Shown: in pieces, positions 1-64,000 of the stretch
Position numbering within the stretch: the stretch's first letter is position 1
How the letters are laid out: every line of letters starts with the position of its first letter
Source of the DNA: Physcia stellaris
Taxonomy: Eukaryota > Ascomycota > Lecanoromycetes > Caliciales > Physciaceae
NCBI GenBank assembly: GCA_018902385.1
Contig: JABSSW010000063.1
Location: 169,466-233,465, forward strand
Length of the DNA: 64,000 bases
Direction: 5' to 3'
Position numbers and translations under genes: made by a program
The notes under the pieces: generated by a model
The model's database searches: none
Told to the model about the DNA's origin: nothing
What the model saw: the letters and a program-made list of their open reading frames with translations, nothing else

Positions 1-461
1 AAACAACACGATTACATTTTTTCAAAAAAATCATGACGTTTTGTTAGTCACGATTCGCGATCGTACACGAAATTTTGATAACGACGATGAAAACAACAAC
101 GACGAAATCAACGTAATTAGTTTTTTCAATAAAAACAAACGACGTTCAAAAGTTCATTCAAATTCTTTTAAATTCATCGACGAAATGAAATTTATTTGAC
201 GTGTTTGAAAAACAAAAATGCATGATAAAATGACGATCAACGTCGATCATTACGACACGAACATAATCGCAATCACTATTGTGATTGATTGAATTGAAAA
301 TAATATCGATAATCACATACAATCGATACGTGATATCGACATGAATCATTTCAAAAATTGACATATGATGTTGAAATTTTTGAATTTCATTTTCGAAAAT
401 TTTGATTTCAAACGCAATATGCGTATTCAATTTCGAACATTGATCATAAATATTCAGAATT
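1..461 (+). pseudogene. G1 gag, upstream fragment
   Basis: Remnant of the G1 capsid (Gag) coding region, ending where B1 inserted. The assignment rests on position: after removing B1 and one copy of the duplication, this stretch runs into the gag-like sequence at 6937, which lines up with the gag of G2. The short reverse-strand frame at 158-478 is a shadow. In the forward direction the stops are TGA. No catalytic or zinc-knuckle motif is visible, so the call is contextual. Confidence 0.55.
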
Positions 462-656
462 TGTGAAATGTCATGCATTGATATGATACTAATACATAAT
501 TACACGAAAATATCGAAGTGAAAAGCAAATACATGAAAATTTGACAAAACATATGTAAAAGATTTGATCATAAACGAAATTCGATTTTGTCACTCGATGT
601 GATAAAATAAAAATGTTAATTTTGTCAAATGTTGAATTCGATGCACGCTCGTCACA
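462..656 (-). repeat. B1 3' LTR
   Basis: 195-bp LTR, reverse orientation. It matches 6724-6931 over its length apart from substitutions and a short indel near 630, and it matches the forward LTRs at 14533, 16579 and 19058. Confidence 0.85.
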
Positions 657-690
657 TTATTTTTCGTTTTTTTCAATTTCGTTTCGAAAC
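657..690 (-). other. B1 polypurine tract
   Basis: Read on the minus strand this is a run of G and A directly upstream of the 3' LTR. The equivalent tract occurs at 14509-14532 (B2) and 19034-19057 (B3). This is the expected place for the plus-strand primer of reverse transcription. Confidence 0.6.
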
Positions 691-870
691 GATTAATCAT
701 TTTTTTCATTTCTTTCATCGATCGACGATTCGAGAAATATCGTTGATTAAAACGTGAATAATTGAACGAATCATTGCGAAAACTGAAATGATCGAAACAG
801 ATGCAACAAACGTGATCTGAAATCAGAAATCGAAAAACGACGAAAACGTAAACGAAAACGTAAATCGAAA

Positions 871-1648
871 TCATGCGAATGAGAATCTTGACTGCAAAAA
901 TGAAAATTTTGATGAAAATCTTGATTGCAACGAAATATAAAAAATGTTTAATTTTTTGTATGATGAAATGATCGATTTTTTTGACAAAACAAAACGACAA
1001 AACGATATCGATTTCGCGAACGTATGTTGTTGAAAATTTTTCGAATTCGAACTTTTCAAATTTTGACTAATCGATGTTTTCTGATTGATTGCAAACATGA
1101 AATAAAAAATTATTCGTGATTGATACATAAAAAAAACGTGATTGACGAGATGAACGAATGTCGAAACGTTGCGAAAAAACACGACGTTTTTGATGCGAAT
1201 GTAAATCAAATGATTTAAGTTTTTCACGAAACATGCGAATCAAATCATCGATAATAAAATAAAATTTCTGATGTTTTGATACAGATTTTCGAGAAAAGAA
1301 ATCCGAAAATGTAAATGAATTGACTGATAATTTCTTAAATCGATTTTGATGTGATTCTATGTGTCGCAATCGGAAAATTTGAACATTTCGATGATATTGA
1401 TTCAAATATCGATGTAAATGTTGAAAAAAAAAAATCGATAAAACAAGCGAAACAAACGAGCAAATGATTGTTGACTTTTTTTTGATTTTGTACGTGAATT
1501 CTGATGTAAAGAATCGAAAATTCGACTTGATATGTTGTTCGCGTATGTGAGTTTTCGTGAAATTGATTCTTGAAATTGAAATTCTGTTAATTTTGCAAAT
1601 CACTTTCGAAAAATTGATTTGTTTGATATGTTTCAGAAATCGAATCAT
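871..1648 (-). pseudogene. B1 C2H2 zinc-finger protein remnant, distal module
   Basis: Minus-strand remnant of the B-family finger protein, spread over more than one frame because of small indels. A degraded finger lies near 1590-1530: the histidine end (THIREQH) and the following segment FFTSEFTYK are clear, while the cysteine end has slipped frame. Further downstream come FDLHSHQKR and, in a second frame, the FAINQKTSI segment, in the same order as in the B3 protein at 18027-18848. It is the C-terminal module of the B1 product. Function is unknown beyond probable nucleic-acid binding. Confidence 0.6.
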
Positions 1649-6936: not shown

Positions 6937-7480
6937 TTTAATTTTTTTATTTCATTTTTTCGTTTTAGCAATTCAATCGATTATAACGAAATCATCAAAA
7001 TCGAAAAATTAATAAAAAAAGATTTTCTGAAATTTGAAAAAAAAAACGATAAATGTATATTTTCGCGAATTCATTACATTCGACGAAATTCGAATCATTT
7101 TGCAATAAATATACAATCGACAATCGAGTTTTCGAAAAAAAAAAATCGCGACACGTTAACAACGTTTTGAATTGTTTCAATTTAAATCAATTTTTGTCGT
7201 TTCGATTTCGATGTCGTTTACGAAATTTGTTATTTCGATTTTTTCGTGAAATTTGTCGTTCATTTTCATTTCAACGTTGAAATCAAAATTCATGATTCGA
7301 TAACAAACAAATTGATCGTTACGAACAAATGTTTACATGCGATGAAATTGATCACGTATAAAAAATATATTCGAACGTTCACAAAATATTAAAAACGTCA
7401 TTGACACAAAATGCAAATGTTTTACATGAACATAATAACGAATCGAGCGAATTTGATTCGAAAAATTGATAATTCACATC
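6937..7480 (+). pseudogene. G1 gag, downstream fragment
   Basis: Continuation of the G1 Gag after the B1 insertion. It aligns by eye with G2 around 29410-29960, including near-identical nucleotide runs before the protease start. Several indels shift the frame, so no single frame spans it. Frames at 6874-7170 and 7053-7280 are pieces in different frames. No zinc knuckle is readable, although a C...C-rich patch lies near 7200-7260 on the forward strand. Confidence 0.55.
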
Positions 7481-7497
7481 AAAAACGCGATTGATGA

Positions 7498-7860
7498 ATG
7501 TTTAAAAAAATTTTTATTCATCATGACGAATTGTTTGATTTTTTTGTCAAACGATTTTTAATTATCAATTGTACGTTGTCATTCAACGATAATAAATATA
7601 AATTAGAAATTTTAATAAACATTGATGCAATTGATTATGATTTTTTTAAATTTGATAAAGAAATTGCGCAATTTGTATGCAACATGTTGAATATGAATTT
7701 CGTATTTTTATTAAAATCGAAATTCATTATCGAATTCGACGATCGTCAAATTTTTTCAATAATTCATGTTATTTATTTCAAGTTGACAATTGATTTGCAT
7801 TTCGAATTGACAATTTTTTGTTCATCATCGATTTGAACAATCATTCGATAATTTTAAAAA
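7498..7860 (+). pseudogene. G1 retropepsin-like aspartic protease
   Basis: This part of pol would cleave the Gag-Pol polyprotein. The frame from 7498 reads through the active-site loop at 7618-7629, which now encodes N-I-D-A where the family has Asp-Thr/Ser-Gly-Ala. All three changes are C-to-T or G-to-A, so the enzyme is dead. Downstream phrases such as IAQFVCNMLNM and KSKFIIEFDDR recur at the same place in G2 (30101-30250). The frame is followed by reverse transcriptase. Confidence 0.75.
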
Positions 7861-8354
7861 ATCGTGAATGAACAAACATGAAATTATTTTGAATATGATT
7901 TACGATAAATTGATTTTCAAATCGTTCAAATGTAATCATCATGACAATATATTTATCAAAACAATGTAAATTCGACGTTTGAAAACTTCTGATTCAAATC
8001 GTCGATAAAACGTATTTAATTGACGTCGCGATGTTTTTTTATCGAAAACAAATAACGCGAAATATATTGTTGCAATAAAATTTCGATATACGATTTTATT
8101 TCGTTCGCAATTTAATTTTTTAACGTTTTATGTACAAAACGAATCAAACGTATTCGATTCAAAATGTTTCGATTGTTTTATTTATTCGAAAATCGATCAA
8201 AATGACGAATTGTTCGTCGTTGAATCAAATTATTCAAAAATTGATATCACAACGATTACGAAAACGACATTCGTCAAAAAAAAAATTGAAAAAACAACGC
8301 AACAAACGTTGAAAAATCAAAAAATAACAATTCGAAATTTTTTCATTTTCGAAA
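7861..8354 (+). other. G1 protease to reverse transcriptase linker
   Basis: Low-similarity connector with short forward frames (8130-8312, 8210-8392), rich in Lys, Gln and Ser. It lines up with 30330-30860 of G2, so it is part of the polyprotein and not a separate gene. No domain recognised. Confidence 0.5.
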
Positions 8355-9290
8355 TTGAATTCAAACGATTCGATGAATATCGCGATAATTAATGCGATTT
8401 TTTTTTTGTTTATTCGTCGATTTCAAAAATCGAAAACAAAAATGCAATGTTTTTTCATTACGATCAATCAAATCGATTTCGCATTCAAAACATTGCGAAC
8501 AAATTTTGAATCGTTGAAAATTGTCGTTGATCAAAAAAATTTTGAAACACGAACAAATCAAATCGATTTTGAACGTATAATGAAAAAAATATCGAAATAT
8601 TTCAAACATTTGTCAAAAATATTCGATTTTCAAAAAATCATTGAATTGTTGTCGTATCGAATTTACGATCACAAAATCGAATTTTTAAACGATAACAATA
8701 CATTGTTTCGAAATCGAATATATTTTTTGTTCGAATTCAAATTTCAAAAATTCAAAAAATATTTGAAAAATAATTTTCAAAAAAATTTTATCGTATTCAA
8801 TCAAACAATATATGTTTCGTTCGTTTTATTTGCAATCAAATCAAATAATCAATTACGTTTGTGTGTGAATTATTGACGATTTAATCACATCACGAAACGC
8901 AATCGATATTTTATTTTTTTGATCGAAAAAATTTTAATTAAAATGCAAAATTGCAAATATTTGATCAAATTGAATATTATATCGATTTTCAACAAATTTC
9001 GAATGAATGAAAAAAATGAAAAATTTATTACATTCGTTATTTTCATAAAATCGTACAAATATCGAATATTATTTTTCGAATTGATCAACGAATTCGCGAA
9101 TTGACAACATTACATGAACGATTTGTTGTTCAATTTTTTGAACGATTTTTGTCAAATTTATTTAAATGATATTTTCATTTACAACAAATTCAAAAAAAAA
9201 CACATCGTTCACGTTCGTAAAATGTTAAAAAAATTCAAAAAATCGATTACAAATGAATAAAAAAATGCGAATTTTTCAAAAAAAAATGAC
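8355..9290 (+). pseudogene. G1 reverse transcriptase
   Basis: Ty3/gypsy-type reverse transcriptase. The frames at 8355-8876 and 8919-9104 are the same phase, joined across TGA stops. The family landmarks are QLRLCVNY (fingers), KLNIISIFNKFRM (palm motif A, first Asp changed to Asn) and, at 9159-9170, YLND where YLDD is expected. Both D-to-N changes are G-to-A after a purine. A further TGA follows FELINEFAN, where the family has a tryptophan. The frame then slips in a small deletion relative to G2 near 9240. The enzyme cannot be functional. Confidence 0.85.
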
Positions 9291-9959
9291 ATTTTTGAAC
9301 GTCATATTATCGATAAATGATTTTCGCATGAATTCGAAAAAATAAAAATCATTGTCAATTAAAAACGTTTTACAAATTTGAAAAAATGCAAATTTTCGTG
9401 AATTTCGTCAATTTTTACAAACGATTCATTCGTGATTTTTCGAAAAAATTCGAATTTTTATTCGAATGATCAAGAAATTCGTGAATTTCGAATGAATTGT
9501 TGAAATCGAAAAAATTTTCAATTTTTTCAAAAAAAACGATGATCGAAAATTTTCATATTACGACATTACGATCGAATCAAACAAATCATTTTGAAAATCG
9601 ATTTTTTTGATTACGTCAATGCGAAAATATTATTTCAATACGACGACGAAAAATTTTGCATTTCGTTGTTTTTTATAATCGCAACATGATTTCAATCGAA
9701 TACAATTACGAAATTTATAACAAAAAATTGTTGATCATTATTCGTTGTTTAAAACATTGACGTTTTGAATTTGAAGCGTTATTGAAAAATCGATCAAAAT
9801 TTTTATCGATTACAAAAATTTGAAAATTTTTATGACGTCAAAAAAATTAATTTTTCGTCAAATTCGTTGAACAAAATTTTTTCGAAATTTAATATTGTCA
9901 TTCAATTTCAATTCGAAATTCAAAACGTTAAAACAAATTTTGATTCGTATATCGAAAAA
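9291..9959 (+). pseudogene. G1 connection and RNase H
   Basis: Connection domain and RNase H, broken by frameshifts and TGA stops. The phrase NYEIYNKKLLIIIRCLKH at about 9702-9755, followed by TGA at a family tryptophan, is a clear gypsy RNase H landmark and recurs in G2 (near 32190) and in modified form in D (near 60880). The expected metal-binding acidic residues cannot all be placed. The reverse-strand frame at 9920-10138 is a shadow of the junction with integrase. Confidence 0.75.
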
Positions 9960-11249
9960 ATTCGACGATTCAAAAAACGATATTGACGAACGACATCAAT
10001 ATCGAAAAACAAATATTGTTTATTTCGAAACGATTCGAAATTCACGCGATAAAAATTGACGAATTTATTTATGAACGAATTTTGTTGATCAACAAAATTG
10101 ACGATAATTGCACGATTTATCGTGAAATCATCGAACAAAATTTATTTCAATGAATAAAATGATTTACGAAATTGCATTGAAAAAAACGACGTTTTATATC
10201 GAAAAATCGATTTTGAATGTTCGTCGATGTTTTTTTATTCGTTGATTTTTTTCAAAAAAATTCATGAATTTTTGTTTCGAAACATTCAAATTTTAATCGC
10301 ATGAAAAATTTTATACGTCGCGATTATTATTGATTCAACATGCGCAAAACGATTCGTCGATACGTACGTAATTGTTATAAATATCAACGCACGAAAATTT
10401 TCAAAAATCAAAAACGATTTATTTATTTTTTTGATCATATTTTTGCAACGTTAAATCGACATATCAATGAATTTTATCATCGAATTGTTCGACGTTCACG
10501 ATCATAATGTCATATGCACGATAATTGACAAATTTAACAAAAAACGTCATTACGTGTTTTGTATCGTCGACGACGAAAATATCAATATTGAAATCACGAT
10601 CAAAATATTTCATCAATTACGTATTTCGTACACATGAATTATTTTTTCGATAACGTTTGATCGAAATTTTCAATTCATATCGTTCGTTTGACAAACATTT
10701 TGCAAAATTTTCGACATCAAATGTAAATTTTTCATCGTTTTTCATTCAAAAATCGATGAACAAATCGAAAAAATCAATCAAAATATCGAAAAACAATTGC
10801 GACAATATTGCAATTACATGCAAAACGATTGAAACGTTTGATTATTTATGATCGAATTTGCAAACAACAACGCGATATTTGCAACAACAAAATTATTATC
10901 ATTTTTCATCAATAAAAATTTTCATTTTCGTATAAATTTTTCATCAAATTTTATTTCGTATGTTACAACGAAAAAACGATTTTTGATCGTCAAAACAAAA
11001 AATATCATCGACACGATGCAAAATATTTTCAATTACGTACGAAATCATGCAAAAATGATTCAAAAACGTATAACAATTCAAATCAACAAACATCGAAAAA
11101 TCGTAAAATACGTCGAAAAAAATTTCGTTTTTTTCGATCGACGAAATATCAAAACGATCAAATCGTTTGACAAATTCGATGACAAAAAATTAAATTTTTA
11201 CAAAATATTACAACGTATGAAACAATTCATATCGATTCAAATTGTTTGA
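9960..11249 (+). pseudogene. G1 integrase
   Basis: Integrase inserts the cDNA into the genome. Evidence: collinearity with the better-preserved G2 integrase, ICTIIDKFNK-type core sequence near 10510-10545, SIKISKNNCDNIAITC phase-shifted around 10780, and a clean 133-codon frame at 10848-11249 starting MIEFANNNAIFATTK and ending with the GPY/F-like region (DDKKLNFYKILQRM). The catalytic D,D,E cannot all be read because of frameshifts. Several TGA codons fall at family Trp sites, for example after ETFDYL. Confidence 0.75.
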
Positions 11250-11329
11250 AATCATGCATATTTACGATGTGTTTCATTGTTGATTTTTTGCGCAAAAATT
11301 TTCGTGATTTATTCGAAAATCAAATCAAT

Positions 11330-11520
11330 GAATTTTTTGATTTTGTTATAATCAACGAAAATTTCGAATGAAAAATGAACGATATTTTGAAATTTCGATA
11401 TCATTACAATCGTTTTCAATATCGTGTCAATTGATCGAATTGATCGCATGATCGAACATGATATTATGTCGACAACGAAAAATTTGATAATGTTCGCGAC
11501 GTGATAAACGATTTTCATCG
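11330..11520 (+). pseudogene. G1 C-terminal chromodomain
   Basis: The frame reads EFFDFVIINENFE, stop, KMNDILKFRYHYNRFQYRVN, stop and so on. The spacing fits a chromodomain: an E-W-x-V-x-x-I-L start, a Y-x-V-x-W strand and a T-W-Y pair. The four in-frame stops are TGA at 11369, 11432, 11441 and 11459, at or beside positions where chromodomains carry tryptophan. Chromodomains bind methylated histone H3 and steer chromovirus integration to heterochromatin. G2 (from about 33840) and G3 (from about 55755) have the same pattern. Confidence 0.8.
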
Positions 11521-12007
11521 AAATTCTTATTTCACGATTGCAAATTCAAAATCGTTCAAAACGTTGATTTCAATATTTCAAAACGTCGTCGACGAATCAA
11601 ATTTTTCAACGAATCGTCGTCGTTTTCGAAAAAATCGTTATGTTTGACATTAATCGAAATTACATTCGATTAAAATTTGAAAATTTCGAATTCAATTCAT
11701 TCATTTCGATTTCATTTTCGCAACGTTTTCAACAATTTTTAGTTTTCGTTATCGTTTCGATGTTATTTACAATCAAAATTTACGTCGCATGAAAAACTGA
11801 ATCGTGTCAAAAACATTTTCAAAAATTGTTGTCAAATTTTATCGAACTTTGAAGCAATAACGAAACATTTGAAAATGAAAAATGATAATCGTGAAATTTT
11901 TGAATTTTGCAAACACTCATATCAATCGACAAAATTTTCAACAAAATTTTTCAATTTCGAAATAACAACGAATCGTCGAGACAACGCTCGCGAAAAAAAA
12001 AAAATAA
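11521..12007 (+). other. G1 3' tail before the LTR
   Basis: Collinear with 34020-34490 in G2 and 55950-56427 in G3. It ends in an A-rich purine run (11993-12006) directly upstream of the LTR, in the place of the polypurine tract. No separate gene seen. Confidence 0.6.
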
Positions 12008-16573: not shown

Positions 16574-16578
16574 GTTAT

Positions 16579-18968: not shown

Positions 18969-19033
18969 ATCATACTTTTCGAATCGTCGATCGATGAGAA
19001 AAGTGAAAAAAAATGATTAGTCGTTTCGAGACG

Positions 19034-47137: not shown

Positions 47138-47268
47138 TTGACGACAAAAAAATTATCTATATCAACGTTCATATATTTGTTGAAATCGTACGTCGATTTG
47201 CAAACAAAAATGTTCTTGAACATTTACATTTTTGTTTGAAAAATGCAATTCAAATTTGATACATTGCA

Positions 47269-49179
47269 TTGATTTTTGTCAAACGCGAAAACATTATGCG
47301 TTCGATTGAAAGCTTTTGCTTCGTTCTGATTATTCGTTACGAAAATCATTCAACAAATTCGTATGTCAAGTTACAAATCGAACAATATATCGTTCGTGAC
47401 GTTCAGAAACGACGTCAACTTGACGAGTATGTGAATCTTTTAATGCGTCATGTCGTTTTTCTCAATATGTTCGAATTGATCGTTTTCACAAAAATCTGAA
47501 ACTCGTTGAATAAAAAATTTCGCAAACACGTTCGAAAATTTGACAAGAAAACAATCGCTAAAAAATTCATTAAAAACTTGAAAAATGCAACGAGCTATTA
47601 CGTTAACGACAATAAGAAAAATACAATCGAAATCGCATATTAACGTGAAATAAAATCGACTCAGAAACAAATTCAAAATTCTGAACGTTTTAATCGATAT
47701 TCAAAATCATATTTTGAAAATTATTCAACGATTTATTTTTTCAAATTTCAAAATGATCAATCGTCACGTAATTGACAAACATTTTTTCAAAATTTTTACA
47801 TTTTTTTATCGTCGCAGCATCGATCGCAATATTCACAACAAAATCAAATTTTTGCAATTCAGAATGCATTTTCTCAACGTAATTTTCAGTATTTTACGCG
47901 TTTAATTCAATATTTTTCGTTTTCGTCAAATCAAAAATTTCTCATCAACAATGTCAATTATAACGCGTTTGTATCGTTTTTTTACGAATACGATAACAAC
48001 GCAGACAACGAATATGAAAAAAAACAATCAATCAATGAAAATACGAAATATGAAATTTTTGAACATGCAAATTTCGATGATATCATCATTTTCTTTCATG
48101 CGAAAATTTCACGACTCGAACAATTCAATGACGAAAAATACACTCGTCATAATATGACATCGTTGTTTTGCAATATTTGTAAAAAAAATTACGTCAACAA
48201 CGATGATCGTGCTCGTTTGAATAATCACATGTTTAATATTCATAATGTTGAAATCAAGTCAAATCAAACAATGAATAAAAAACGATACATCAATTGAATG
48301 AAACATGCAATTTTGCATGTAATCATTATTCGAAAATCGTCATCAGAACGTGAATATGTCATCATTCAAACGCGATTGTATGATGAAAACAATGAAAAAA
48401 TATTCGTTTGCATCGACACTGATTTCAGCGTCAATTTCATTGACGAATCGTTATTGTCAAAAAGTAATTTTTGAAATCGATTACATAATTGTCACTCAAT
48501 TATCGTACGAAATATCGCAGATGAACGCATTGTTGACAAACAAATGAATATATTTTTGTATATCACAACGATCGACGAATCATTGAAACGACTAGAAATC
48601 AAAACATACGTTAATAAAAACATTCAAACAGACGTCATACTCGACATGAATGAACTAAAAAAAATCGAAAACGATATCGTCATATGACTAAACAAAAAGA
48701 AAATGCAATTAAATAATTGTCACGTCACGATCAATTTCACATTTCGAAACAGTCAATCTGTGATCTTTTTCGCAAATGCAATATCAAGAAACGACTATAC
48801 AAATTTTCGATCATGTTTTAAATCGTTCGATAACAAATGTCCGAAAAAATCTGTACGTTTCGCAAAAATAACGATCAAAATTTCATACAAATCAATTCGT
48901 TTCTCAAACGATCTGTTTCAAATCGAAACGATCAAAATCGAAAAATTTCAAACAACATATGATTCGAATATTGCGAAATTAAAATCTTTTGCAATTGCAC
49001 GAAGTTTCGCATTCAATTTCGCATCGAGTTTCGTAAATGTTTTCACTTTTTCTTTTCAACAACGAGTTAAGTCAACGAATTTCAATCGACGTGTTCGATT
49101 TAATATTTCGAATCGCTTCAAGCGTTTCACGATGAATTTTGCTTTGAAAAATCGTCGTCGCAATCTCAACGATTTTTGA
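47269..49179 (+). pseudogene. E C2H2 finger plus retropepsin polyprotein
   Basis: A single phase runs from 47269 to 49179, broken by five stops: TGA at 47497, 48295, 48472 and 48685 plus one TAA near 47642; a further TGA may lie near 47780. The finger at 48169-48245 (CNICKKNYVNNDDRARLNNH then MFNIH) is C-x2-C-x15-H-x4-H. About 55 residues later comes a retropepsin: CIDTDFSV at 48409-48432, where the family has D-T-G/S, and ILDMNEL at 48637-48657, where the family has I-L-G. Both G-to-D changes are G-to-A after G. The C-terminal tail (48703-49179) is Arg/Phe/Ser-rich and basic. No reverse transcriptase follows. Confidence 0.7.
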
Positions 49180-49319
49180 AAAAATTGAACAATTGATGAA
49201 AAAACAGACTGTTTTCTTATTTCTTTATCTGTATTATTAATAGATTTCTCGAAAAACGAATCGTCGTTTTTCAATAAAACACAACGAAAACGTTGTGATT
49301 TTTTTCGTTCGATGACATC

Positions 49320-49479
49320 TGTTACGATAAATTTTTACATAGAACTGAAATTAAAATATCTTGATCAGAAGAAATTAGCGCTTTCGCAAAATCTCGACAC
49401 GAATCAAATATCTCGCTCTTTGCTTTCTAGATAGTAACAATTTTAATCACATTATTATTCAATACGTTTTATCGTAACA
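49320..49479 (+). repeat. E 3' LTR
   Basis: 160 bp, followed by aacac and then g. Confidence 0.9.
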
Positions 49480-51565: not shown

Positions 51566-52156
51566 TTGCGAAACAGATTCGACGAATTCGAAAATCATTT
51601 TATTTTCAAATTTTATAACAAATTTATTATTATTCGAATTAATATAATTGTTGATGCGTTGAAATGCGTTCAATTAATTTTACAATTTGATAATTTCGTG
51701 AATTTGTGTACACACGAAATGATTGTGAATGAAAATGCGATAAAATTTGATGTTTTTGTTTTGAAAAAATTGATTTTCTGATTCGACAAAAAAATTAAAT
51801 AAAAATAATCAAATATTTTTTTTTATAAATTGTGTATTATATTAATATTTGAAAATAGAAAAAAAATTCGTTTCATCAAATATGCATGTTCATTATTAAA
51901 AAAAAAATTGTTTTTTCGTCGTTTAATGATTTTTCAATATTATCTTGTAATTGATGTTTTTTTCGAACGTTCATGTAACAAAAAATTTTGTCGAAAAAAA
52001 TGTCGATTTATATTATGTCAATATTTTCGATTGTTCGTTTTTGATAAAAAAATGAAATCGTTTGATTTGTTTCGATTTGATGTCGATTTTTTTTTCACAA
52101 TTGATGTAAAAATATTGAAAATATCGATTGATATCGAAATTTTAAATTGTAAATAA
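51566..52156 (+). other. Two forward open frames, function unknown
   Basis: Frames at 51566-51781 (71 codons, containing DALKCVQLILQFDNFVNLCT) and 51830-52156 (108 codons, Cys-rich: a C-x4-C and later CRFILCQYF). The first overlaps a piece of the dispersed module, so the module may be part of a coding sequence. Neither matches a family I know. Confidence 0.3.
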
Positions 52157-53227
52157 TTTAATACGTTGTTAAATCATTCACGAATAATTTGATTTACAAC
52201 AATTGTCAAACGTCGTTTTGATGTAATATTTATGTTTTTTTTTTTCGAATTTTTATTATTGTTGTCATTTTTTGTATCGATTTCGTCGTTCGATATATTT
52301 TTGAAATTATTCGAAATAATTTTACGTTTTTTAAATGATTTTTGTACGTTTTTTTGTTGTTGTATTTAAATGTATTTTGTTATATACGTGCAAATAATGA
52401 ATTTGTTTTTAAATTAACAATATCATTTGATTGAAAAATTTCATTCGTGAACAATTAATTGCAACATTGATTATCGCAAAAAAAACAATTTCGAATAACG
52501 ATTGTGAATGTTGTACGTGAAATTTCGTATTGTCGATTTTCGCGTTTTTGATTCGATTTAATTTATTTGAAATTATTGAATTAATCAATCGAATCAATCG
52601 TGAATCGAAAACATTATATTGAATTTTAACATAAAAACACAAAAATTGAAAAATAAATGTGTTACAATCAACGCGACATCAAATATATATTAAAAATAAA
52701 AAAAATTAAAAAAAATGCAATTTAACGCGAAACGTTTTTAATTGTGATTGACGAAATTGATTGAACAAAATTTTTATCGTCGATTAAAATAACGATTGTT
52801 TGTTTGAATCGTCAAATTATTTTGTTGTTTAACGTGTTTTGCGAAAATTTAAATTTATTTAATTTTTAACGTGTTTTATGAAATATACAAACGTGTCGTT
52901 TATTTTTCGTTTGATTGTTTATATTTTGCAAAATTGTACGATTAAAATCAAATAAATTGTTAAAAAAATTTTAAATGTATTAAATTATTATTTATATTAA
53001 ATATGAATTTTTTTGCGATCGAAATGTTCGATTATAACGATTAACATCGACAAAAAAAATAAAATATCGTTTTTCGTTATATTTATATTCATTTTTTTAA
53101 CATATTTTTTTTTTTCAAATTTCGAATTCAAAAATTTCAATAAACGATAAATGAAACGACGTCAATAATATTTATCGTAATCGTTGTTTTTTATAATTTG
53201 TATTTTGCGATATTTTTCGAAATATTC
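52157..53227. other. Saturated AT-rich DNA
   Basis: No convincing frame. The minus-strand reading around 52100-52640 contains several TAA stops and is rejected. Confidence 0.4.
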
Positions 53228-54905
53228 AAAATTAAAAACACAATTGCGAAAATTGACAAATCGTCACAAACATTTAATCGCGACAATTCAAAATTTTCGC
53301 AACACGATTGTTTTTGATATTAAATTGAAATTCGAAATATAACAAAATATTCGAAATAAAATTAAATTAATTAACGTCGTATTTCGATCGCATTTGAATC
53401 GATTTAAATATTTGTAAATTGTTTTCGATCGTGTTCAATAATTTCAACAATAATTGAATAATATCAAAAATGAATATCGATAATATTTGAATACAATTTA
53501 TAAATCGTGCGATCGCGAAATTTTTTAACATTTCGATACGATTTTCGAAATTTTTACAATTAACGTAATTGCAAAAAATTTGATATATTTGATATCGAAT
53601 TAAATTTACATTAAATTTAATTTGTTTTCAATTTTATTTTTAATTTTCGTTAATTTTTTAAATTTTATTTGAATATATTTCGTGTTGCAATTTTCGTTTT
53701 CGATTTTTATGAATCGAAAAAAACGAAATAAATCGTGAAAAAAATTAAACAATGAAAAAAAAAAAAAAATTGAAATAAAAAATGATTTGAATACGAAAAA
53801 TAAATAAAAAATAAAAAATAAATTGTTAACAAAAAATAAATTGAAAACGAATAATGAAAAAAAAAATCGAATTAAAAAAATGAAAAATAAATTGAAAACG
53901 AAAAAAATAAAAAAAATAAAAAATTATCGTTGTTGCGACGATGCGTACAACGATATTGACGTTAATACAATTGATATTTTGAATCGAATTGATCGCAAAA
54001 TATCGATTTTTGAAAAAAATTATATATCGATTATTTTTATAATTCGTTATATTAATTTTAATACAAATCGTTAAATTAAAATGATTTTTTTTTTATTTGT
54101 ATTAATGATTTATTTTCATTTAATTTAATAAAAAATTGCAAATGATAAAATTTATAAAAATACATTTCGAAAATCGCGATTTTTAAAAACGAAAAAAATC
54201 GTATTATTGATTTTGACATTTTTTAATTTATATAATTTGCAATGTATGAATTTCGATTCGAAATTCAATTTTTTTTTATATTTGTATAAATTTATCAAAT
54301 TTCAAATATATTATCGTATTTTTTTTTCAAAAAAAATATTAAAAAAAATCATGTTTTTTGATCGACATATTTCGTTATAAAAAATTTTTATTTCGAAAAA
54401 AAAAATGTGATTGCATCGAAAACGATATTAAATAAATAAAATTTTATAATAAAATTATTATTACATGCTTTTTTTAATAATATTAAATTTGTACGTTTTT
54501 TTTGCAATTGTTATTGATTTTTTTAATTCAATGAAATAAACATGTTTTTTTATACGAAATCGACGTTTTCGAATATTGTAAAATATTTTTTTTGATTATA
54601 ATAAAAATCGATTGCAATTTTTTTTGATATTGACATAATTAAATTTGTTATTCAACATTTTATTTTTAATCGATTTTTTTTCAAAAAAACGTATATTATT
54701 TTGTACGTTTTTTCGTTTATTTTTAAATCAATGCGAATGCGATTATTTGTTCAATAATTCATGTTCAAATTTTTTTCAAATTTTTTCACAAAAACATTGA
54801 AAACAATTATTGTAATCGATATTTTTAACAAATGTAATTCGCATTAACGAACGCGTTAAACAAACAATTAATTGTATGAATTTACGAATGATGTCGAATT
54901 TAATT
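53228..54905 (-). repeat. Right arm of the long inverted repeat
   Basis: Reverse complement of 41527-43245. The outer end lies near 54905, where family-G integrase sequence begins. The inner end is near 53228, where similarity stops after the phrase caattgcgaaaattgac. Confidence 0.75.
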
Positions 54906-55740
54906 ATCGAATTGTTCGATGTTCACGATTATAACGTTATTTGCACGATAATTGACAAATTCAATAAAAAACGTCATTACGTTTTTTTGCATTGTCGACG
55001 ACGAAAATATCAATGCGAAAATCACAATCAAAATAATTATCAATTACGTGTTTCGTACGTATGAATTATTTTTTTTTATAACGTCAAATCGAAAATTTCA
55101 ATTTATATCGTTTGTTTAATAAACGTTTTGCAAATTTTTCGACATCAAATGTAAATTTTTCATCGTTTTTCATTCAAAAATCGATAAACAAATCGAAAAA
55201 ATCAATCAAAATATCGAGAAACAATTGCGACAATATTGCGATTACATACAAAACGATTAAAACGTTTAATTATTCATGATTGAATTTACAAACAACAACG
55301 CAATATTTGCAACAACAAAATTGTCATCGTTTTTTATTAATAAAAAATTTCATTTTCGCATAAATTTTTTATCAAATTTTATTTCGTATGTTACAACGAA
55401 AAAACGATTTTTAATCGTTAAAACAAAAAATATTATCGACACGATACAAAATATTTTCAATTACGTACGAAATTATGCAAAAATGATTCAAAAACGTATA
55501 ACAATTTAAATCAACAAATATAAAAAAATCGTGAAATACGTCGAAAGAAAATTCGTTTTTTTGAATCGACGAAACATCAAAACGATCAAATCATTTGACA
55601 AATTTGATGACAAAAAAATCAATTCGTACAAAATGTTACAACGTATAAACAATTTTTATCGATTAAAATTGTCAAAAATTATGCAAATTTACGATGTGTT
55701 TCATTGTTGATTTTTTCGTAAAAATTTTCGTGATTTTTTC
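54905..55740 (+). pseudogene. G3 integrase, C-terminal half
   Basis: Reads VHDYNVICTIIDKFNKKRHY at the start, then QYCDYIQND, TGA, NV, TGA, LFMIEFTNNNAIFATTK (frame at 55276-55509), matching G1 and G2 in order. Extra stops relative to G1 include a TAA after ITI where G1 has a Gln codon CAA, so a rare CpA-to-TpA change also occurred. Confidence 0.8.
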
Positions 55741-55960
55741 GAAAATCAAATTAATGAATTTTTCGATTTTGTTATAATCAACGAGAATTTCGAATAAAAA
55801 ATCAACGATATTTTGAAATTTCGATATTATTACAATCGTTTTTAATATCGTGTCAATTAATTAAATTGATTTCATGATCGAACGTAATATTATGTCGACA
55901 ACAAAAAAATTAATAATGTTCGCAATATAATGAACGATTTTCATCGTAATTATTTCACGA
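55741..55960 (+). pseudogene. G3 chromodomain
   Basis: Same pattern as G1: NENFE, stop, KINDILKFRYYYNRF and then stops at the family Trp sites. Here one CAA has also become TAA (reading RF, stop, YRVN). Confidence 0.75.
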
Positions 55961-56427
55961 CAACAAATTCAAAATTGTTCAAAACGTTAATTTTAATATT
56001 TCAAATCGTCGTTAACGAATCAAATTTTTCAACAAATTGTCGTCGTTTTCGAAAAAATCGAATCGAAAATTGATATTAATCGAAATTATTTTCGATTAAC
56101 ATTTGACGTTACGAATTCAATTTTCATTCATTTATTTTTAATTTTACGATTTTTAAAACAATTCAATTTTTATTGTCATTTCGACGTTATTTACAATCAA
56201 AATTTATATCGTTTTATTGAATCGTTCAAAAAATTTTCAAAAATTGTTAAATTTTATCGAACTTTTTTCGACAATAAAATATTAAAAAAATGAAAAATAA
56301 TGATCGTCGAAATTTTTTGAATTTTGCAATCAAACAATTTTTTTAACAAAATTTTCAACAAATTTTTTTCGAACAAATTTCGAAACAACAACGAATCGTC
56401 GAAACGACGTTCGCAAAAAAAAAAAAT

Positions 56428-56668
56428 CGTTACGAATATGTTGACAAATAAATTCGACAAATAAATAATTGATATAATAAATGATTGAACAAATGCGTTT
56501 AAATCGAATTACATTTTAATTTTTTAACGAAATTAACGTGATTTGAAATTTGACAAAATAAACATTGTTTCTGAAAATTTCATTAATTTTATATTTAATG
56601 ATTTTTTGCAAATTTATTGTTTTCGTTTCAAAAAAAATAATACGTTTATTCAAATAGAATAAATGATA
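56428..56668 (+). repeat. G3 3' LTR
   Basis: 241 bp, a diverged family-G LTR beginning cgttacgaatatg and ending aaatgata. Confidence 0.75.
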
Positions 56669-57517
56669 TTTTTCGAAAATCAATAATTCAATCAATTGAT
56701 AACATTATATAAATAATTTATTGTTTGAATATAAAAAATCATTTTTGTTAAAAAAAATTTTGAATAACATTTTTATTTATAATAAAATTCGAAAACAATA
56801 TAAACGACATTTCATTCAAATTTTTCATATATTAAAAAAAACTGATTTTCAGATCGATATCAAAAAATGTAAATTTTTTTAAACAAAAATTTCATTTTTA
56901 AAAATCATATTATCGACAAAAAATTTACGCATAAATTTCAAAAAAAAATACAAAATATCGTCAATTGAATTCGTTCAATATGCATCAAAAAATACAAACA
57001 TTTATAAATTTTTGCAATTTTTATCGATGTTTCATTAAAATGTTTTCGAAATTCGTCAAATTTTTGATTCGAATAATTAAAAAAAATTGATTTCGAATGA
57101 ATCGATTTCGTTAACGAAATATTTGAAATTTTGAAAAAACAAATTATCGAAATTTTAATTTTTCGATATTACAATCGCAATCATAAAATTATTTTGAAAA
57201 TCGATTTTTCAAATTGATATTTAAAAAAAAAATTATTTCAATACGACAACGACGAAATTTTTATATTTTTTATGATTTTTTCAACAAAAAAATAATTTTT
57301 GTCAAATGCAATTACGAAATATATAACAAAATTTTTTGATTATTATTCGATGTTTAAAATATTAAAAATTCGAATTCGAAAATATCGACGAATTAATCGA
57401 AATTTATATCGATTACAAAAATTTGAAAATTTTTATAACAAACAAAAAATTGATTTTTCGTTAAATACGTTGAATCGAAATTTTAACGAATTACAATATC
57501 AAAATTCAAAATTAATT
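56669..57517 (+). pseudogene. G-like reverse transcriptase tail and RNase H fragment
   Basis: Forward reading gives FQIDIKKCKFF-like sequence near 56845-56880, a connection region, and CNYEIYNKIF near 57307-57340, followed by ISITKI and further RNase H-type phrases. The order matches G1 9200-9900. Element D cuts it at 57518. The match to G1 is closer than to D (for example KFISITKI), so it is a separate, older G-related copy. Stops and indels are frequent. Confidence 0.6.
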
Positions 57518-57708
57518 TGTAAGAAATAAAAATTCAAAATTTTCGAAAATGCGATTCGCATTTCGTCAAACAATTCGATTATCGAAATTCGAATAATTTC
57601 GAAAAAAATCAATTTCAATTATTTTACAATTCGATCAACGATAAATTCAACAAATTCATATTGTCAATCGAAATCGATCGAATTCGTACGATTGAATAAA
57701 TAAAATGT
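57518..57708 (+). repeat. D 5' LTR, part alignable to the 3' LTR
   Basis: 191 bp that match 63810-64000 with five differences (one ApG, four CpA). The true LTR is longer; an end at one of the ...ttaca phrases near 57770 or 57836 is possible. Confidence 0.8.
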
Positions 57709-57849
57709 AAATAAAAAACAATTGCAAAACGTAATTTGTTTTGTAACGATTAATAAATCAATATATTACATTTCAAATTATACATTTTTGATGTCAATAA
57801 TTCATTAAATTATACTATTTTTAATACGAATTTTACATTTTAATCGTTA

Positions 57850-59870
57850 TTATATTTCAAAATGATGTCATTCGTGTATATTTAACAAAACACAATTTTG
57901 TTGTTTCGCATACATCATGTCGAATTTTGATAATGATTTGTTTTTTGAATTTGTCGAAAATGTTGATTTATTTTTTTGATTGATTTATTACAAACAACAA
58001 ATCGAAAAAATCACAAAAAAAAATCAAATTCAAAATTCGAATTGTCGAACGTTCGAAATTTGCAATTTTTATTTCATTTATTTTTGTTTTTATTTTTTTT
58101 TTGATTTTGTTTGAAAATTTTTCGTCATGAAAATTATCGAAACAACATCGAATCAATATGAAAAAAAAAATTACAAAAAATGAAAAAAATATTGCAAACA
58201 AATGAAAAATCAATTCACGCAAAACAACGTGAATCACATAATTCAATTTTCGAATTTAATCAAAATCGCATATGTTGATATTTATTTTAAATCAAACAAC
58301 AATGCGAACAAATTTTGAAACGCAAAAATCGATTTTCATTCAAACAAACAATACATTTGAATCGAATTCAAAATTTTTTTTAAAAACGACATCGAACGAA
58401 CAATCACGTTGTAACAAAATTTTTTGAAAAAATATCGCAAACACAAACAAAGTTACAATCAATCGATTAAAAATTACAATGTCGAACGAATAAATATGTT
58501 TGTTGAATTGAAATTCGAATTCAAATTCACGAAAACAATGAAATTCAACGATTTTCGTGACGAATTACGTTTGAAATTTCGTTGCATACTTTTTAAAAAA
58601 AAGAAAATTTTCACAAAGACGAAATTGTTTGAACGACTCAAACGTATAAAAAACGTTCAAATTTTAAAAAAAAAAATTCAAAAATTTCAAAAAGCGTAAA
58701 ATCTCGTTCGATATTGACAATTTTGAAAACGAAAACGAAAAAATTCAAAATTGCGAAATTAAAAAAAAAAATCAAAAATATTAACAAAATCAATTCGAAT
58801 CACGAATCAATCAAATCGAAAAATATTCGAATGTATCGTTGATTCGTTAACGAATTCAAAAAATTCAAAACAAAAATAATTGTATAAATTGTGACAAATC
58901 AAATCATCAAATCGAAATTTGCACAAACAAAAAAAACAAAATCATTTTTGTTGATCAAATTTTTGAACAATCAAAAAATTAATCGATTTGATAATTTTCG
59001 TTCAAATCATTAAAAAAAAAATTCGAATTTCGATTTCGATACGTCGTTTTTTTCAAACATAAACAAAAATTATGTCAAAAAAAAAACGACGCAAAAAATT
59101 TAAAAATTTATAATTCGTAAATGCGTCAAAATCAAAATTAATATACAAAACGAAAATCGAATTTGAAACGAATCGAAAACAATATTCGATACAAAAACGA
59201 AAATTAATTTGATAAATCATGTTTATGCGAAAAAATTTAATTTTCGTCGTTTCGAAATTTTAAATTGTGATGCAATAACAATTGACAATTATCGTTTGAA
59301 AACATATGACGTTTATTTCGTACAATTCGAAATGTCAAACGTCAAAAAAATCAATCGTTTTTTCGAAAATCGTTTTTGATCGTGAATTTGAATTGAAATT
59401 TAACGTTAAACATGTTTTGAATACAATTTTCGAAAATCAAAATGAATTGAAACGACGACAATATCAAAATTTGACGTTGCAAAAAAAAACATTTCATTTT
59501 TATCACGAATCGTATCGAAAACATCGAATCAAAACAATTGACAAAAAACGTCATCGATAACGAAATCGAAACGTATTTCATGTTCGTACGAATGTATATT
59601 GACAAACAATTCGACATGCATGAAATGCACATTTCAAAACGAATTCAAATAAAATTTGTTTTGACGAAAATAAAAAAAAATTCGATATCAAAATCACGTT
59701 TTTCGAAATTTTGAAAACGTATGAAAAATTCGATAACGAAAATAAAATTTACGAATTATCGAATCATGATTCAAACGATCATGTTATTGATTTAAAAAAA
59801 AAACAAAAAATCGTCGTATAAATCAATTTATTTTTTATTTGAAAATGAATTTCGAATATTACGTGTTTAC
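57850..59870 (+). pseudogene. D Gag and protease region, poorly readable
   Basis: Forward frames at 58424-58699 (91 codons, KFNDFRDELRLKFRCILFKK, basic) and 59306-59560 (84 codons) lie where Gag and protease should be. I could not find the protease active site with confidence. The minus frames at 57968-58246 and 59351-59632 are shadows. Confidence 0.4.
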
Positions 59871-59879
59871 ATCGAAAAA

Positions 59880-60600
59880 CATTTAATTAACGATTTCATT
59901 CGATTTTCACAATTTTTTGCAAAAACGTTTATTTTGTTCGTCAAAAAAAACGATAATTTACGATTATGCGTGAATTACAAAAATTTTAATGTTTTCACGA
60001 TAAAAAATAGATATTTTTTATCGTTAATCGATGAAAATTTAAATAAATTCAACAAAATCGTCAAATATATCAACATCGATTTGATTGTTGTTTATATCGA
60101 TTGCGTATCAAACATGAAAACGAATGAAAAACAATTTTTCGTATTCGATATGATCATTTCGAATATAACGTATTTTTTTTCGATTTCATTAACGTTTCGA
60201 CGACGTTTCAAAATTTTATCAATCGAATTTTGACGATTCGTTTCGATATTAACGTCATAATATATTTGAACGATATAATAATTTATTCGATAAACGTCGA
60301 AATTCATGTCGACGATGTCAAATGAATTTTTGATCGTTTTAAAAAAAATAAATTATATATTGTTTTTGAAAAATGCAAATGATTCGTTGACAAAATAAAT
60401 TTTCTTGAATTCGTTGTTTCATTCAAAAAAATACGAATGCAAAAAAAAAAATCAAAATTATTCAACAATGATTTGTATTTCGCAACGTTTTCGACATCAT
60501 GCAATTTTTCGATATCGTTAATTTTTATCGACGATTCATTAAACATTTCAATAAAATTGTTGAATTTTTGATCGTTATGTTAAAAAAATCACAAAAATTA
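59880..60600 (+). pseudogene. D reverse transcriptase
   Basis: RLCVNYKNFNVFTIKNRYF (from about 59955) is the fingers landmark. IYLNDIIIYS at 60256-60285 is the catalytic motif with the first Asp changed to Asn. FEKCK, TGA, FVDKINFLEFVV follows, where the family has F-x-V/G after the motif. Stops in phase are TGA. Length and order are normal for Ty3/gypsy. Confidence 0.8.
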
Positions 60601-60639
60601 CGAAAAATATTCGTAAACGCAAACGAAATCAAAATCGAA

Positions 60640-61110
60640 ATCGCAACAAATTATCGAATATTCACATTTTTTGATTAACGAAACGTTGAAAATTTTCAAA
60701 CGATTTCGCAAAACATTTATCGAAACATCAATTTTACGTCATTTCGATTTCGAACGTGTTATTCGAATCGAAATCGACGCATTCGACAAAATCATCGAAA
60801 TCATTTTATGTCAACAAAACGACGAAAATCATTGACATTTTGTTGCGTATTTTTCGCGCAAAATGATTTCGATCGAATGCAATTACGAAATTCATAACAA
60901 AAAATTGTTGATTATTGTGATTTCGTTCAAACAATGAAAACATTATTTCGAAAACGCAAAAAAACAAATTTTTGTTTTTATTGATCATCGCAATTTGAAA
61001 CAATTTATAATCACAATTAAATTGTCGTCACGTCAAATTCGATAAATTCAAAAATTGAATCGATATAATTTTTTAATCGATTATCGTTTCGATAACAAAA
61101 ATTTTGTTGA
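60640..61110 (+). pseudogene. D RNase H
   Basis: Reads LKIFKRFRKTFIETSILRHF, then RVIRIEIDAFD, where the family has the first catalytic Asp in D-A-S, then CNYEIHNKKLLIIVISFKQ, TGA, and FVFIDHRNLKQF. The acidic positions Asp in EIDAF and in IDHRN survive. The minus frame at 60806-61003 is a shadow. Confidence 0.8.
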
Positions 61111-62440
61111 CGAATTTTCAAAACGATTTGATTACATGATGATTATTAAAAAAAAAACGTCGAAAACAATCGTCAAATTTTGAAACAATTGCAAAAATCA
61201 TTGATCGCAAATTCGAAACGTTTCGAAAAAATGCAAATAAATGCGTAATCAAAATCATTAATACGATTTATGTCATGAAACGATTCATGAATGCGATATA
61301 TAACATAAAACGTCGATCGCATTTAAATGATTTAACAATCGAATCAATCAACGTTGTTTCAAAAACATTTGATTCAAAAAATTCAAAACGAAATCGAATT
61401 TCAATCAACGTTGTTTCGAAAACATTCGATTCAAAAAATTCAAAAATTCGAAACATTCGATTGAACAAAAATCAAACGTGACATTCATAAAATGAAAAAT
61501 TTTTGTGTTAAAATCAACGATTGTATTTGAATACGCAATGATAAAATTCGAATACAAATTGTTTTACGAAAAAAAACAATATATAACGACGAATCAACAT
61601 TTTTATTGTTGAATTTCGTTCGTGATTTGATCGTTAAAAATCAATTCGTTTTTGAAATATGTCGAAAATTAATTATTTCGAAAACAAAAACAAATAATTG
61701 ACAACACAAAAATGAATTTTTGTATTACGACGACGTCGTTTACATTTCAGAAAATTTGCGTGAAAACGTTATTCGTGTCAATCACGATAATTCGTTCGTT
61801 GATCATTTCGACATCGAACGAACGTTAAAATTGATACGTCGAAAATATTATTAATCGAATCAAAATTTTATCGAAATTTTTGAAATGCGACAACAAATCA
61901 AAAAACATTGTGAAACATACGTCGTTTGCAAACGAAACAAAATTGCACGACACAAATTATACGACGAATTTTTTTTTTCGATTTTTGAATTTAAATGAAT
62001 TGATTTTTATGAATTTCGTAACAAAATTTTTTTTCAAATAAAACGTGAAATGAAACGATTTACGATTCGATTTTAATAATTGTAAATCGTTTAACGAAAA
62101 TAATTATTATATATCAATGATTAAAACGATTTTCGCAAAAATTTGATCGAAATTTTATTTCGCGAAATATTCGATTTCACGATTTTTTTCGTCAATCGTT
62201 ATCGACAAAAATTTCATTTTACATTCAAATACAACGATGCGTTGTGTTACGTTTTGAAAATTAAACGTAAATTGTCAATCGTTTTTTATTTTCAAATCGA
62301 TAAACAAATCGAACGAATGAACAACGTCATGAAACAATTTTTTCGCGTTTTCGTCAATTTCGAACAAAATGATTGAATAAAATTGTTATTCATAATCGAA
62401 TTCGTTTACAACAACAACAAATACGCATTCAAAAACATTT
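61111..62440 (+). pseudogene. D integrase
   Basis: The linker contains a 66-bp direct duplication (61343-61408 and 61409 onward, both with aatcaacgttgtttc). The core C-terminus reads DKQIERMNNVMKQFFRVFVN (about 62301-62360) and then QND, TGA, IKLLFIIEFVYNNNKYAFK, a strong gypsy integrase landmark with Trp to TGA. The catalytic Asp residues are not all placed because of frameshifts. Confidence 0.75.
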
Positions 62441-62860
62441 TTTCGTTCGAAATCATGTTTGAATATTCGTTTCGCATGTTTTTCGAAAAAACGTGAAACA
62501 AAAAAAATTAAATTCAAATTCGCAAAAAAACACGTTGAACATTTAATTGAATTATTTCGAATATTGAAAAACAATTTATTCGTAACACAACAACAACAAA
62601 CAATATACAAAAACGAACGCACAAAATTAATGTCATACAACGTCGAAAATTACGTGAATTTGAACGATAAAAACATCAAAATTAAACGAAACAAAAAATT
62701 GAAATGAAAATTTTTTGAATTATTTCAAATTTTAAAAATTATAAAAAATCAAATTTATCGTTTAAATTTATTCAAACGTTGACGCATTCACGACGTTTTT
62801 CACGTTTTTTATTTGAAAAAATTTAATTTAAAAAAAAAAACGCGCATACGTCACATTTTT
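62441..62860 (+). pseudogene. D integrase GPY/F-type region
   Basis: The frame at 62459-62707 and the phase after it end in KKLK, TGA, KFFELFQILKIIKNQIYRLN, TGA-broken RIHDVFHV. This follows the F-G-P-Y/F...Y-x-L...I-H-x-V-F-H-V pattern of chromovirus integrase C-termini. Confidence 0.7.
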
Positions 62861-63130
62861 TTGAATTTTCGTATCAAATTGAAAATATTGAATTCGACGA
62901 AAACATGAAAATGAAAATCACGAAAAATTTTTATGAAATCGAAATCATTAAAAACAACAAAATTTTCAAAACAAATGAAATTTCAAACAAATTTTACAAC
63001 GAATTCGATTTTTATTATTTGATAAAATGAAAAAAAATTATGAAAACGCGATTTGAAAAATTTGCATCGTTAATTAAACATTTTCGAAAAATTTTGCGAC
63101 AATTTCACAACGAAAATTCAAAAAAATTTG
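62861..63130 (+). pseudogene. D chromodomain
   Basis: Reads YEIEIIKNNKIFKTNEISNK, then FDFYYLIK, TGA at 63028, then a charged segment with FEKFASLIKHFRKILRQFH. The Y-Y-L-I-K-W form is the second chromodomain strand, again with Trp lost. The family is different from the G chromodomain in sequence but the same in place. Confidence 0.65.
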
Positions 63131-63809
63131 ATGTCAATAAAAAAACAAATTATCGAAAATCACGAAAAAATAAATTGAAATATTTATTGCATGTTAACAA
63201 TTTTCGTTTTCAAAAATTTTGTGTGTTATTTATTGTTTAAAATTTACGACGTATAAAAAATTGAATTATATCAAAACATTTTCAAAAATTGTTGTTCGAT
63301 TTGATCGAACGATAAATCGTTAAATAAAAAATGTAAAATGAAATAAAAAAAAATTCGAAAAATTTGAATATCAATGCGATCGCGATTAATGAACGTTTAT
63401 CGCGTTACATTTTTTTCATGATATCGATGTTGATATTCGAAATAAAAAAATGAAAAAATGAAAAAATGTTCGAATTCAAAAATTTTTGTTAACAAATCAA
63501 TTGTCAATCATCATATCGAAAATTGTGAATGATACGAAATCAAACATTCGATCATAAAAACAACAAACAATTGATTTATCAAATTATGTTTTTTTTTGAA
63601 TCATTCAAAAAGATGTTTTTTCAAATTTTTAACGCAAATTGATTATTGAATTCGAACAAAAATATTTCGAAATGCGAAAATCACGATTATAATGATTTTT
63701 CAAATCAATGCAAAATCAAAACAAACAAAACACGTCAAAACAAACAAAATACGTCAAAATTTTGTTAACATGTTGATTTCAAAAAATTTCGATATTTAAA
63801 AAAAACGTA
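63131..63809 (+). other. D 3' tail
   Basis: A short continuing frame to 63240, then AT-rich DNA. Near 63720-63760 the phrase aaacaaacaaaa(c/t)acgtcaaaa is repeated. No further gene seen. Confidence 0.4.
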
Positions 63810-64000
63810 TGTAAAAAATAAAAATTCAAAATTTTCGAAAATGCGATTCGCATTTCGTTAAACAATTCGATTATCGAAATTCGAATAATTTCGAAAAAAA
63901 TCAATTTCAATTATTTTACAATTCGATCAACGATAAATTTAACAAATTTATATTGTTAATCGAAATCGATCGAATTCGTACGATTGAATAAATAAAATGT
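63810..64000 (+). repeat. D 3' LTR, cut by window end
   Basis: 191 bp visible, partner of 57518-57708. Confidence 0.85.

Follow-up and report, generated by a model that had tools for sequence, protein, structure and literature searches.

A RIP-like C-to-T process directed at CpC and CpT in repeats of the lichen-forming fungus Physcia stellaris

Which process can remove nearly every CC and GG from 64 kb of fungal DNA and leave CG abundant? The question is raised by the end of contig C63 of Physcia stellaris (Lecanoromycetes, Caliciales), a lichen-forming fungus; this whole stretch of 64,000 bp (positions 169466-233465 of 233465) is referred to as the window. An earlier note on its sequence had proposed a process resembling repeat-induced point mutation (RIP), aimed at C before a pyrimidine and leaving CpA and CpG. 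We find that such a process is real, saturated, confined to repeats, bound to a pyrimidine at position +1 and RIP-like in how it works. The window itself is very likely a transposon graveyard resulting from repeat-directed C-to-T change of this type, with the order CpC > CpT >> CpA, CpG. In support, we observed that both strands are changed, that the affected DNA is limited to repeats and sharply bordered, that the context rule holds and that CpC is exhausted before CpT, together with one-strand patches and a speed far above background. The assembly analysed (43.97 Mb, 147 contigs) is smaller than the published total of 46.57 Mb (43.32% GC, nanopore and Illumina reads, ascospore-derived culture; PMC7513301). 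Statements on cited papers refer to the parts of their text that were available, and in that part of the genome paper no RIP analysis was found.

Mutation spectrum of the Ty3 copies

Two near-intact Ty3 copies with long open frames and about 53% GC provide the basis for comparison: L023 (C12:59001-63000) and L024 (C5:1165201-1169200), which are 95.7% identical over 4 kb. The C12 copy served as reference and the share of changed A/T sites as background. Besides the copies in the window (w7 and w29, see Table 2), eight further loci were aligned over the pol part, being the best-scoring of 61 non-intact rows.

Table 1. C-to-T changes by context in mutated Ty3 copies (changed/total sites or share).
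Copy	Part compared	CpC	CpT	CpA	CpG	Background (A/T)
L029	pol vs C12	309/323	246/304	11/298	5/312	8/1105
L028	pol vs C12	302/323	228/304	12/298	7/312	15/1105
L034 (half-mutated)	pol vs C12	241/318	131/298	8/294	6/310	16/1093
w7	most of 4-kb piece	508/520	438/454	81/472	17/486	~3%
C120 copy	most of 4-kb piece	426/440	353/394	45/426	13/403	
w29	pol part	92%	90%	30%	13%	10%
L005 (intermediate)		200/233	149/214	44/213	34/224	0.09
L020		70/71	55/56	12/79	1/61	

On both strands the changes are almost confined to CpC and CpT (Table 1), in agreement with the earlier note. The two youngest copies, L029 and L028, are also the cleanest: 94-96% of CpC and 75-81% of CpT are converted, against 4% of CpA and 2% of CpG at a background of about 1%, which is the reverse of the usual CpA preference, as had been claimed. 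In older copies CpA loss rises to 13-30% (background 2-10%), whereas CpG stays at one to two times background; over pol, 46/297 CpA sites are lost in w7 (background 2%) and 86/286 in w29 (background 10%). CpA is a slow third target, whose loss grows with the age of the copy. The claim that CpA and CpG are left alone is therefore close to exact for young copies, but does not extend to CpA in older ones. Bases other than +1 have little effect on CpC and CpT. An effect of a +2 pyrimidine on CpA is seen in w7 and absent in w29, and is not claimed.

Raw counts follow the same pattern. Per kb, the intact C12 copy holds 138 CC+GG, 130 CT+AG, 127 CA+TG and 133 CG (given as twice the count), against 0-0.4, 13-39, 118-126 and 121-132 in seven of the eight mutated loci; for L034 the values are 24, 81, 127 and 130. 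CpC is converted before CpT, with CC+GG exhausted in seven loci while CT+AG remains, a distinction that the earlier note did not draw. A stretch near a fully affected block, L018:200-800 (C100:20200-20800), holds 3-4 CC+GG and an undiminished 23-36 CT+AG per 200 bp; it lies in sequence with no intact reference and may represent an early CpC-only stage.

Twelve of 17 tblastx clusters were left out of the spectrum (11 at 43-51% identity and L008 at 37%, with 20-41% of A/T sites changed). These represent other element families or copies of great age; in them, too, change is strongest at CpC and CpT (0.47-0.83, against 0.25-0.48 for CpA and CpG), at a background too high for use.

In the half-mutated L034 on C95, top- and bottom-strand targets are mutated in separate patches (e.g. 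20/24 top against 0/17 bottom in one bin, and 49/62 against 1/41 in the last 400 bases of pol), an asymmetry reached in 0/2000 shuffles. Such patches are consistent with an enzyme that moves along one strand at a time. Both strands are affected almost equally in the other nine mutated copies (0.81-0.98 each). L029 has lost all CC/GG, and 81% of its CpT sites are converted, at less than 1% change of A/T sites, so that the process must be far faster than ordinary change.

Composition of the window and restriction to repeats

The window contains 5 CC (about 1015 expected from base counts) and 1 GG (about 938 expected), at positions 1303, 1372, 45823, 48841, 50710 and 51505. CT (502, observed/expected 0.17) and AG (438, 0.15) are reduced to 0.16 together, and TA stands at 0.44, against 1.26 for CA, 1.27 for TG and 3.76 for CG; the latter value shows that depletion is not of the CpG type. 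The near-absence of CC/GG and the abundance of CA, TG and CG had both been noticed before, as had three blocks in which CT and AG are nearly gone. These hold 2.9 (26.8-45.5 kb), 4.0 (49.5-50.5 kb) and 2.6 (51.1-64 kb) CT+AG per kb, compared to 27.0 in the window outside these blocks and about 130-135 where DNA is unaffected. Two further blocks, at about 8.0-11.5 and 15.0-16.4 kb, had been missed. Overall, the window is a mosaic in which 21 stretches, each 600 bp or longer and together 28.4 kb, lack CT and AG altogether and lie beside segments that retain some, with abrupt changes (e.g. from 33 to 0 CT+AG per 500 bp at 49.4 kb). Apart from the six sites, CC/GG is gone from both kinds of segment alike.

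To model the outcome, 13 target sets (no change included) were applied to unmutated host or element sequence and the dinucleotide tables were compared by Kullback-Leibler divergence. Full conversion of CpC and CpT predicts a GC content of 0.243-0.257 (observed: 0.247 for the window, 0.227 at 29-45 kb). This set gives the best fit both at 29-45 kb (0.024-0.028, followed by CpT alone at 0.157-0.184) and in the whole window (0.176, followed by CpC alone at 0.281-0.285). TA is observed at 0.062 against 0.045 predicted, an excess in the direction expected from slow CpA loss. The marks of canonical CpA-directed RIP are absent: TpA/ApT is 0.46, CpA loss in the three youngest copies is 3-4%, and none of 127 overlapping 1-kb pieces of the window passes either set of the usual indices, TpA/ApT and (CpA+TpG)/(ApC+GpT).

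The earlier note had named equal depletion in unique genes and repeats as the sign of a general base bias. We sampled the genome in 18 stretches of ten kb, scored in 2.5-kb pieces. Ten of these (L006, L007, L009-L014, L016 and L017) are unaffected throughout, with a GC content of 0.46-0.54 and CC/GG and CT/AG at 0.77-1.19 and 0.98-1.23 of expectation per piece; no equal loss is seen in them. In the other eight, pieces below 33% GC have CC/GG at 0.00-0.08 of expectation, and the remaining pieces are normal or straddle a border (0.73-1.02). Leaving aside pieces that cross a border, two states make up the sample. In one, GC content is 46-54% and the dinucleotides are ordinary; in the other, GC content is 21-33% and CC/GG is close to zero. 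At each of the four borders studied, the shift occurs within about one 200-bp bin. Within the window 25.1 kb recurs, and 25.8 kb has matches among 15 other loci that contain affected DNA (113 kb); the 100 kb taken from unique loci yields 0.8 kb of self-match and none to affected loci or the window. In the ten sampled stretches and at the four borders, unique sequence is spared. With a published GC content of 43.3% and states at 0.496 and about 0.25, we infer that the process would have affected roughly one quarter of the genome. One border of affected sequence, in the first 1500 bases of L031, lies beside a Ty3 copy (51 CC+GG per kb in the left flank) and may help to date the insertion.

Table 2. 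Features of the window (positions within the 64,000 bp).
Position	Strand	Feature	Remark
1..64000	.	Block saturated for C-to-T at CpC, both strands	6 CC/GG in 64 kb
155..463	+	Fragment of the gag part of the C12/C5 Ty3 element family	
6939..10610	+	Mutated Ty3 copy w7	Collinear with the near-intact C12 and C5 copies
7989..11526	.	Nearly CT/AG-free stretch	Not listed in the earlier note
8355..8876	+	Remnant open frame of the reverse transcriptase region	No Pro, Gly or Trp; query for relatives
16416..26765	.	CC/GG gone, CT/AG partly retained	
29283..33032	+	Older mutated copy w29 of the C12/C5 Ty3 element	
34975..43157	.	Longest nearly CT/AG-free stretch	3730 + 4452 bp without CT/AG, one site at 38705 between
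45500..49433	.	CC/GG all but gone, CT/AG partly retained	2 CC/GG sites; abrupt drop to none at 49.4 kb
51944..64000	.	CT/AG nearly gone	TA raised to ~58 kb

Two side observations concern the remnants in this mosaic. TA amounts to 76-106 per kb at 51001-58000 and to 34-89 per kb in other parts of the window, a difference that would mark an older or more CpA-mutated segment. By eye, remnant frames at 3752-4384 (-) and 18027-18848 (+) resemble C2H2 zinc-finger repeats (C-x2-C ... H-x4-H); both are located in segments that retain CT.

The context rule also leaves its trace in coding potential. Conversion of CpC and CpT would erase Pro and Gly codons and turn the Trp codon TGG into TGA; by enumeration, TGG is the only sense codon a single such step away from a stop. 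Gln and Arg codons are not, and consequently dead elements retain long open frames without Pro or Gly. In-frame stops are mostly TGA, both in 150 reverse transcriptase matches (250 TGA, 33 TAA, 3 TAG) and in the 61 non-intact rows (475 TGA, 106 TAA, 5 TAG). When Trp codons were followed in 10 mutated copies (90 in all), 81 had become TGA and 5 TAA, and 4 were unchanged. Across the 20 frames of the window that start with ATG and span 100 codons or more, a total of 2876 residues includes 1 Pro and neither Gly nor Trp.

As query, the mutated reverse transcriptase frame returned 25 proteins, all from ENA, and 25/25 lack Pro and Gly (4996 residues); a query that itself lacks both favours such hits, though the parts of these open reading frames (ORFs) outside the match are also devoid of them. 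Their His+Gln content is 1.6-9.0% (median 6.1%), against 6.2% for intact pol. Judged by composition, these ORFs place the signature in other records; they say nothing of its reach among species. A profile built from 15 of the 25 mutated ORFs plus that of the window found no DNA of relatives in genome_contigs or viral_contigs, so that any spread over other lichens is indicated by protein composition alone. Three of the relatives (P0207, P0217 and P0218) contain 7-17 Trp, perhaps due to a gene caller reading TGA as Trp; TGA-rich stops may mislead gene callers.

Candidate enzymes and rival explanations

Following the suggestion to look for RID/DIM-2-type methyltransferases, we obtained four matches of PF00145 in three genes, i.e. 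three DNA methyltransferase genes. One is DIM-2-like (an open frame of 1001 amino acids with DUF7893). The other two carry PF00145 alone and are named here, by our own choice, RID-A (P0001, 932 amino acids, on C5) and RID-B (on C6, with a first exon of 401 amino acids; its later motifs were read as well). We take DUF7893 to be a mark of DIM-2, and the type of motif VI a mark of the RID/Masc1 class. RID-A is 49% identical to a DNA cytosine methyltransferase of Aspergillus candidus, and both RID-A and RID-B retain PPCQ. In a quick tree, used only for this separation (168 columns, with a long-branch warning and the DIM-2-like row left out), they form separate groups with a Shimodaira-Hasegawa-like approximate likelihood ratio test (SH-aLRT) value of 99; Heterodermia carries both types (P0008 and P0128). 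The RID-B type, with motif IV mostly PPCQSFSPAQ, occurs in Physcia, Heterodermia and about 25 database sequences. Motif VI reads EET in 24/24 proteins with PPCQ (among 27), and EQT in 114 of the 120 best-ranking RID-A hits (298 in all). EET as a private mark of RID-B was rejected, as it also occurs in Aspergillus candidus, Talaromyces and other distant hits. Having PF00145 alone agrees with the description of class I proteins, which have no replication-foci domain (PMC4352252). Neurospora RID appears not to methylate DNA by itself, but it does induce RIP during the sexual phase (PMC11969663).

A link between the mutations and a RID/DIM-2-type enzyme is plausible from these gene models. Repeats would be recognised in the sexual phase, and a RID-A, RID-B or DIM-2-like protein would deaminate, or methylate and deaminate, cytosine. 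More specifically, RID-B might be a neofunctionalised RIP enzyme that reads a +1 pyrimidine (CpC first, CpT second) in a lineage that has lost effective CpA-directed RIP; we regard this as a tentative suggestion and rather doubtful, its odds being lowered a little because EET is not private.

Several observations weigh against the repeat-directed reading. The C12 and C5 copies are repeats and yet unmutated, and the culture was derived from ascospores (PMC7513301). Not every repeat pair in the nucleus is hit, given that two near-intact copies escape: the process may be leaky, recent to these copies or lapsed, or the copies may be protected. RIP elsewhere also skips some copies, and escape is hence not treated as defining. 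The differences between the two copies show at most a slight excess at CpC and CpT (24/565 CpC and 21/488 CpT against 17/526 CpA and 13/522 CpG; in the reverse direction 16/550, 17/492, 14/531 and 8/509). The CpA preference usual for RIP is absent. The choice of the eight loci is biased to young copies, the 61 rows include pieces of the same copy, and strand patches were examined in one copy, L034. Both sexual timing and the enzyme are inferred. Finally, class labels are based on domain and motif marks rather than on comparison with a characterised RID or DIM-2, for which reason we lowered our confidence in the overall explanation; NCBIfam gives only the DNA methyltransferase superfamily.

Nonetheless, the alternatives explain less. 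Methylation induced premeiotically (MIP), as in Ascobolus, involves no change of sequence, and here the sequence is changed. In a MIP-like variant, a RID/Masc1- or DIM-2-type enzyme would methylate repeats at CpC and CpT, with the 5-methylcytosines slowly decaying to T over generations. The products would be identical, the methyltransferase genes are present and CT is partly retained in some segments, but the speed seen in L029 (8/1105 A/T sites changed) speaks against slow decay and the patches in L034 suggest bursts; we consider it unlikely. The same patches, and the fact that the compared elements are Ty3 retroelements, would suit an APOBEC/AID-like deaminase with a +1 pyrimidine preference that edits retroelement cDNA. 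Such editing would favour one strand, however, and the nine other copies are mutated near-equally on both. APOBEC_N has no match in the genome, weak evidence as this profile is silent in control genomes too. The family dCMP_cyt_deam_1 has 8 matches; of the three loci at which frames were read, two look like the riboflavin-pathway type in our reading and one has no clear frame. We consider cDNA editing very improbable. UDG gave two matches, and the UDG and deaminase scans did not separate the mechanisms.

A general bias in the mutation or composition of non-coding or late-replicating DNA would account for the AT-richness of the sampled affected blocks. It is largely refuted, and deserves hardly any credence, since CA, TG and CG deviate from the intact copy by no more than about 10%, borders are as sharp as about 200 bp and ten whole 10-kb stretches are normal throughout. 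Equally far-fetched is a sequencing or assembly artefact such as nanopore miscalls at modified C: nanopore reads were indeed used (PMC7513301), but CC/GG is normal elsewhere in the same assembly, TGG changes coherently to TGA, and the same protein signature is found in 25/25 related ENA ORFs.

Relation to known systems and significance

CpC is the context least used in Neurospora RIP; in P. stellaris it is the first target, and CpA and CpG are nearly spared. The likeness to Neurospora crassa, where RIP is directed at CpA/TpG (PMC12543289), lies in C-to-T change confined to repeats and in the presence of RID-like and DIM-2-like genes. In Magnaporthe oryzae, Botrytis cinerea and Sclerotinia sclerotiorum, which have one or two copies of a RID/Masc1 homologue, CpT accompanies CpA (PMC4352252, whose available text does not mention CpC). 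CpT is thus a target in common, but in P. stellaris CpC is the dominant target, with CpA close to background in young copies. An alignment-based analysis of RIP-capable ascomycetes reports CpT to TpT as the dominant form (PMC7882544); no CpC rule is named in the available part, and the TpA/CpA indices used there for detection call the window unaffected. The basidiomycete repeat mutation linked to Masc2 shares C-to-T change in copies of transposable elements and is directed at CpG (PMC4352252), which is nearly untouched in P. stellaris.

Among lichen fungi, Cladonia rangiformis has AT-rich segments derived from transposable elements as well as RID and DIM-2 homologues, but its mutated DNA peaks at about 16% GC (PMC12542154), below the prediction for conversion at CpC and CpT only. 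Repeats of Endocarpon pusillum have a TA/AT ratio of 1.47 and a CpA pattern (PMC3897900), unlike P. stellaris. A CpC/CpT rule is not described for either in the available text of these papers. Partial precedents include some Stagonospora repeats and Neurospora Tad1, in which the share of CpT is high (PMC2621366), and Monilinia, where double changes from CpC to TpT accompany CpA (PMC8959702). A 2025 survey of 1,239 fungi concludes that RIP-like defences share a CpA preference, and cites Clutterbuck 2011 for other preferences (PMC12543289). Our full-text literature search, with most subscription papers and preprints outside its scope, found no report of RIP that is CpC-dominant or exclusive to CpC/CpT.

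P. stellaris is a strong counter-example to the shared CpA preference. As the affected blocks score RIP-free by the usual indices, presence/absence calls made with those indices can be wrong, and Pro/Gly-free open frames from dead elements sit in protein databases. A natural change of the target code offers a handle on which protein and which residues read the +1 base. If the reading of RID-B were true, fungal genome defence would have a second target code that evolved separately; RIP surveys based on CpA would not see it, and it might be common in Lecanoromycetes.

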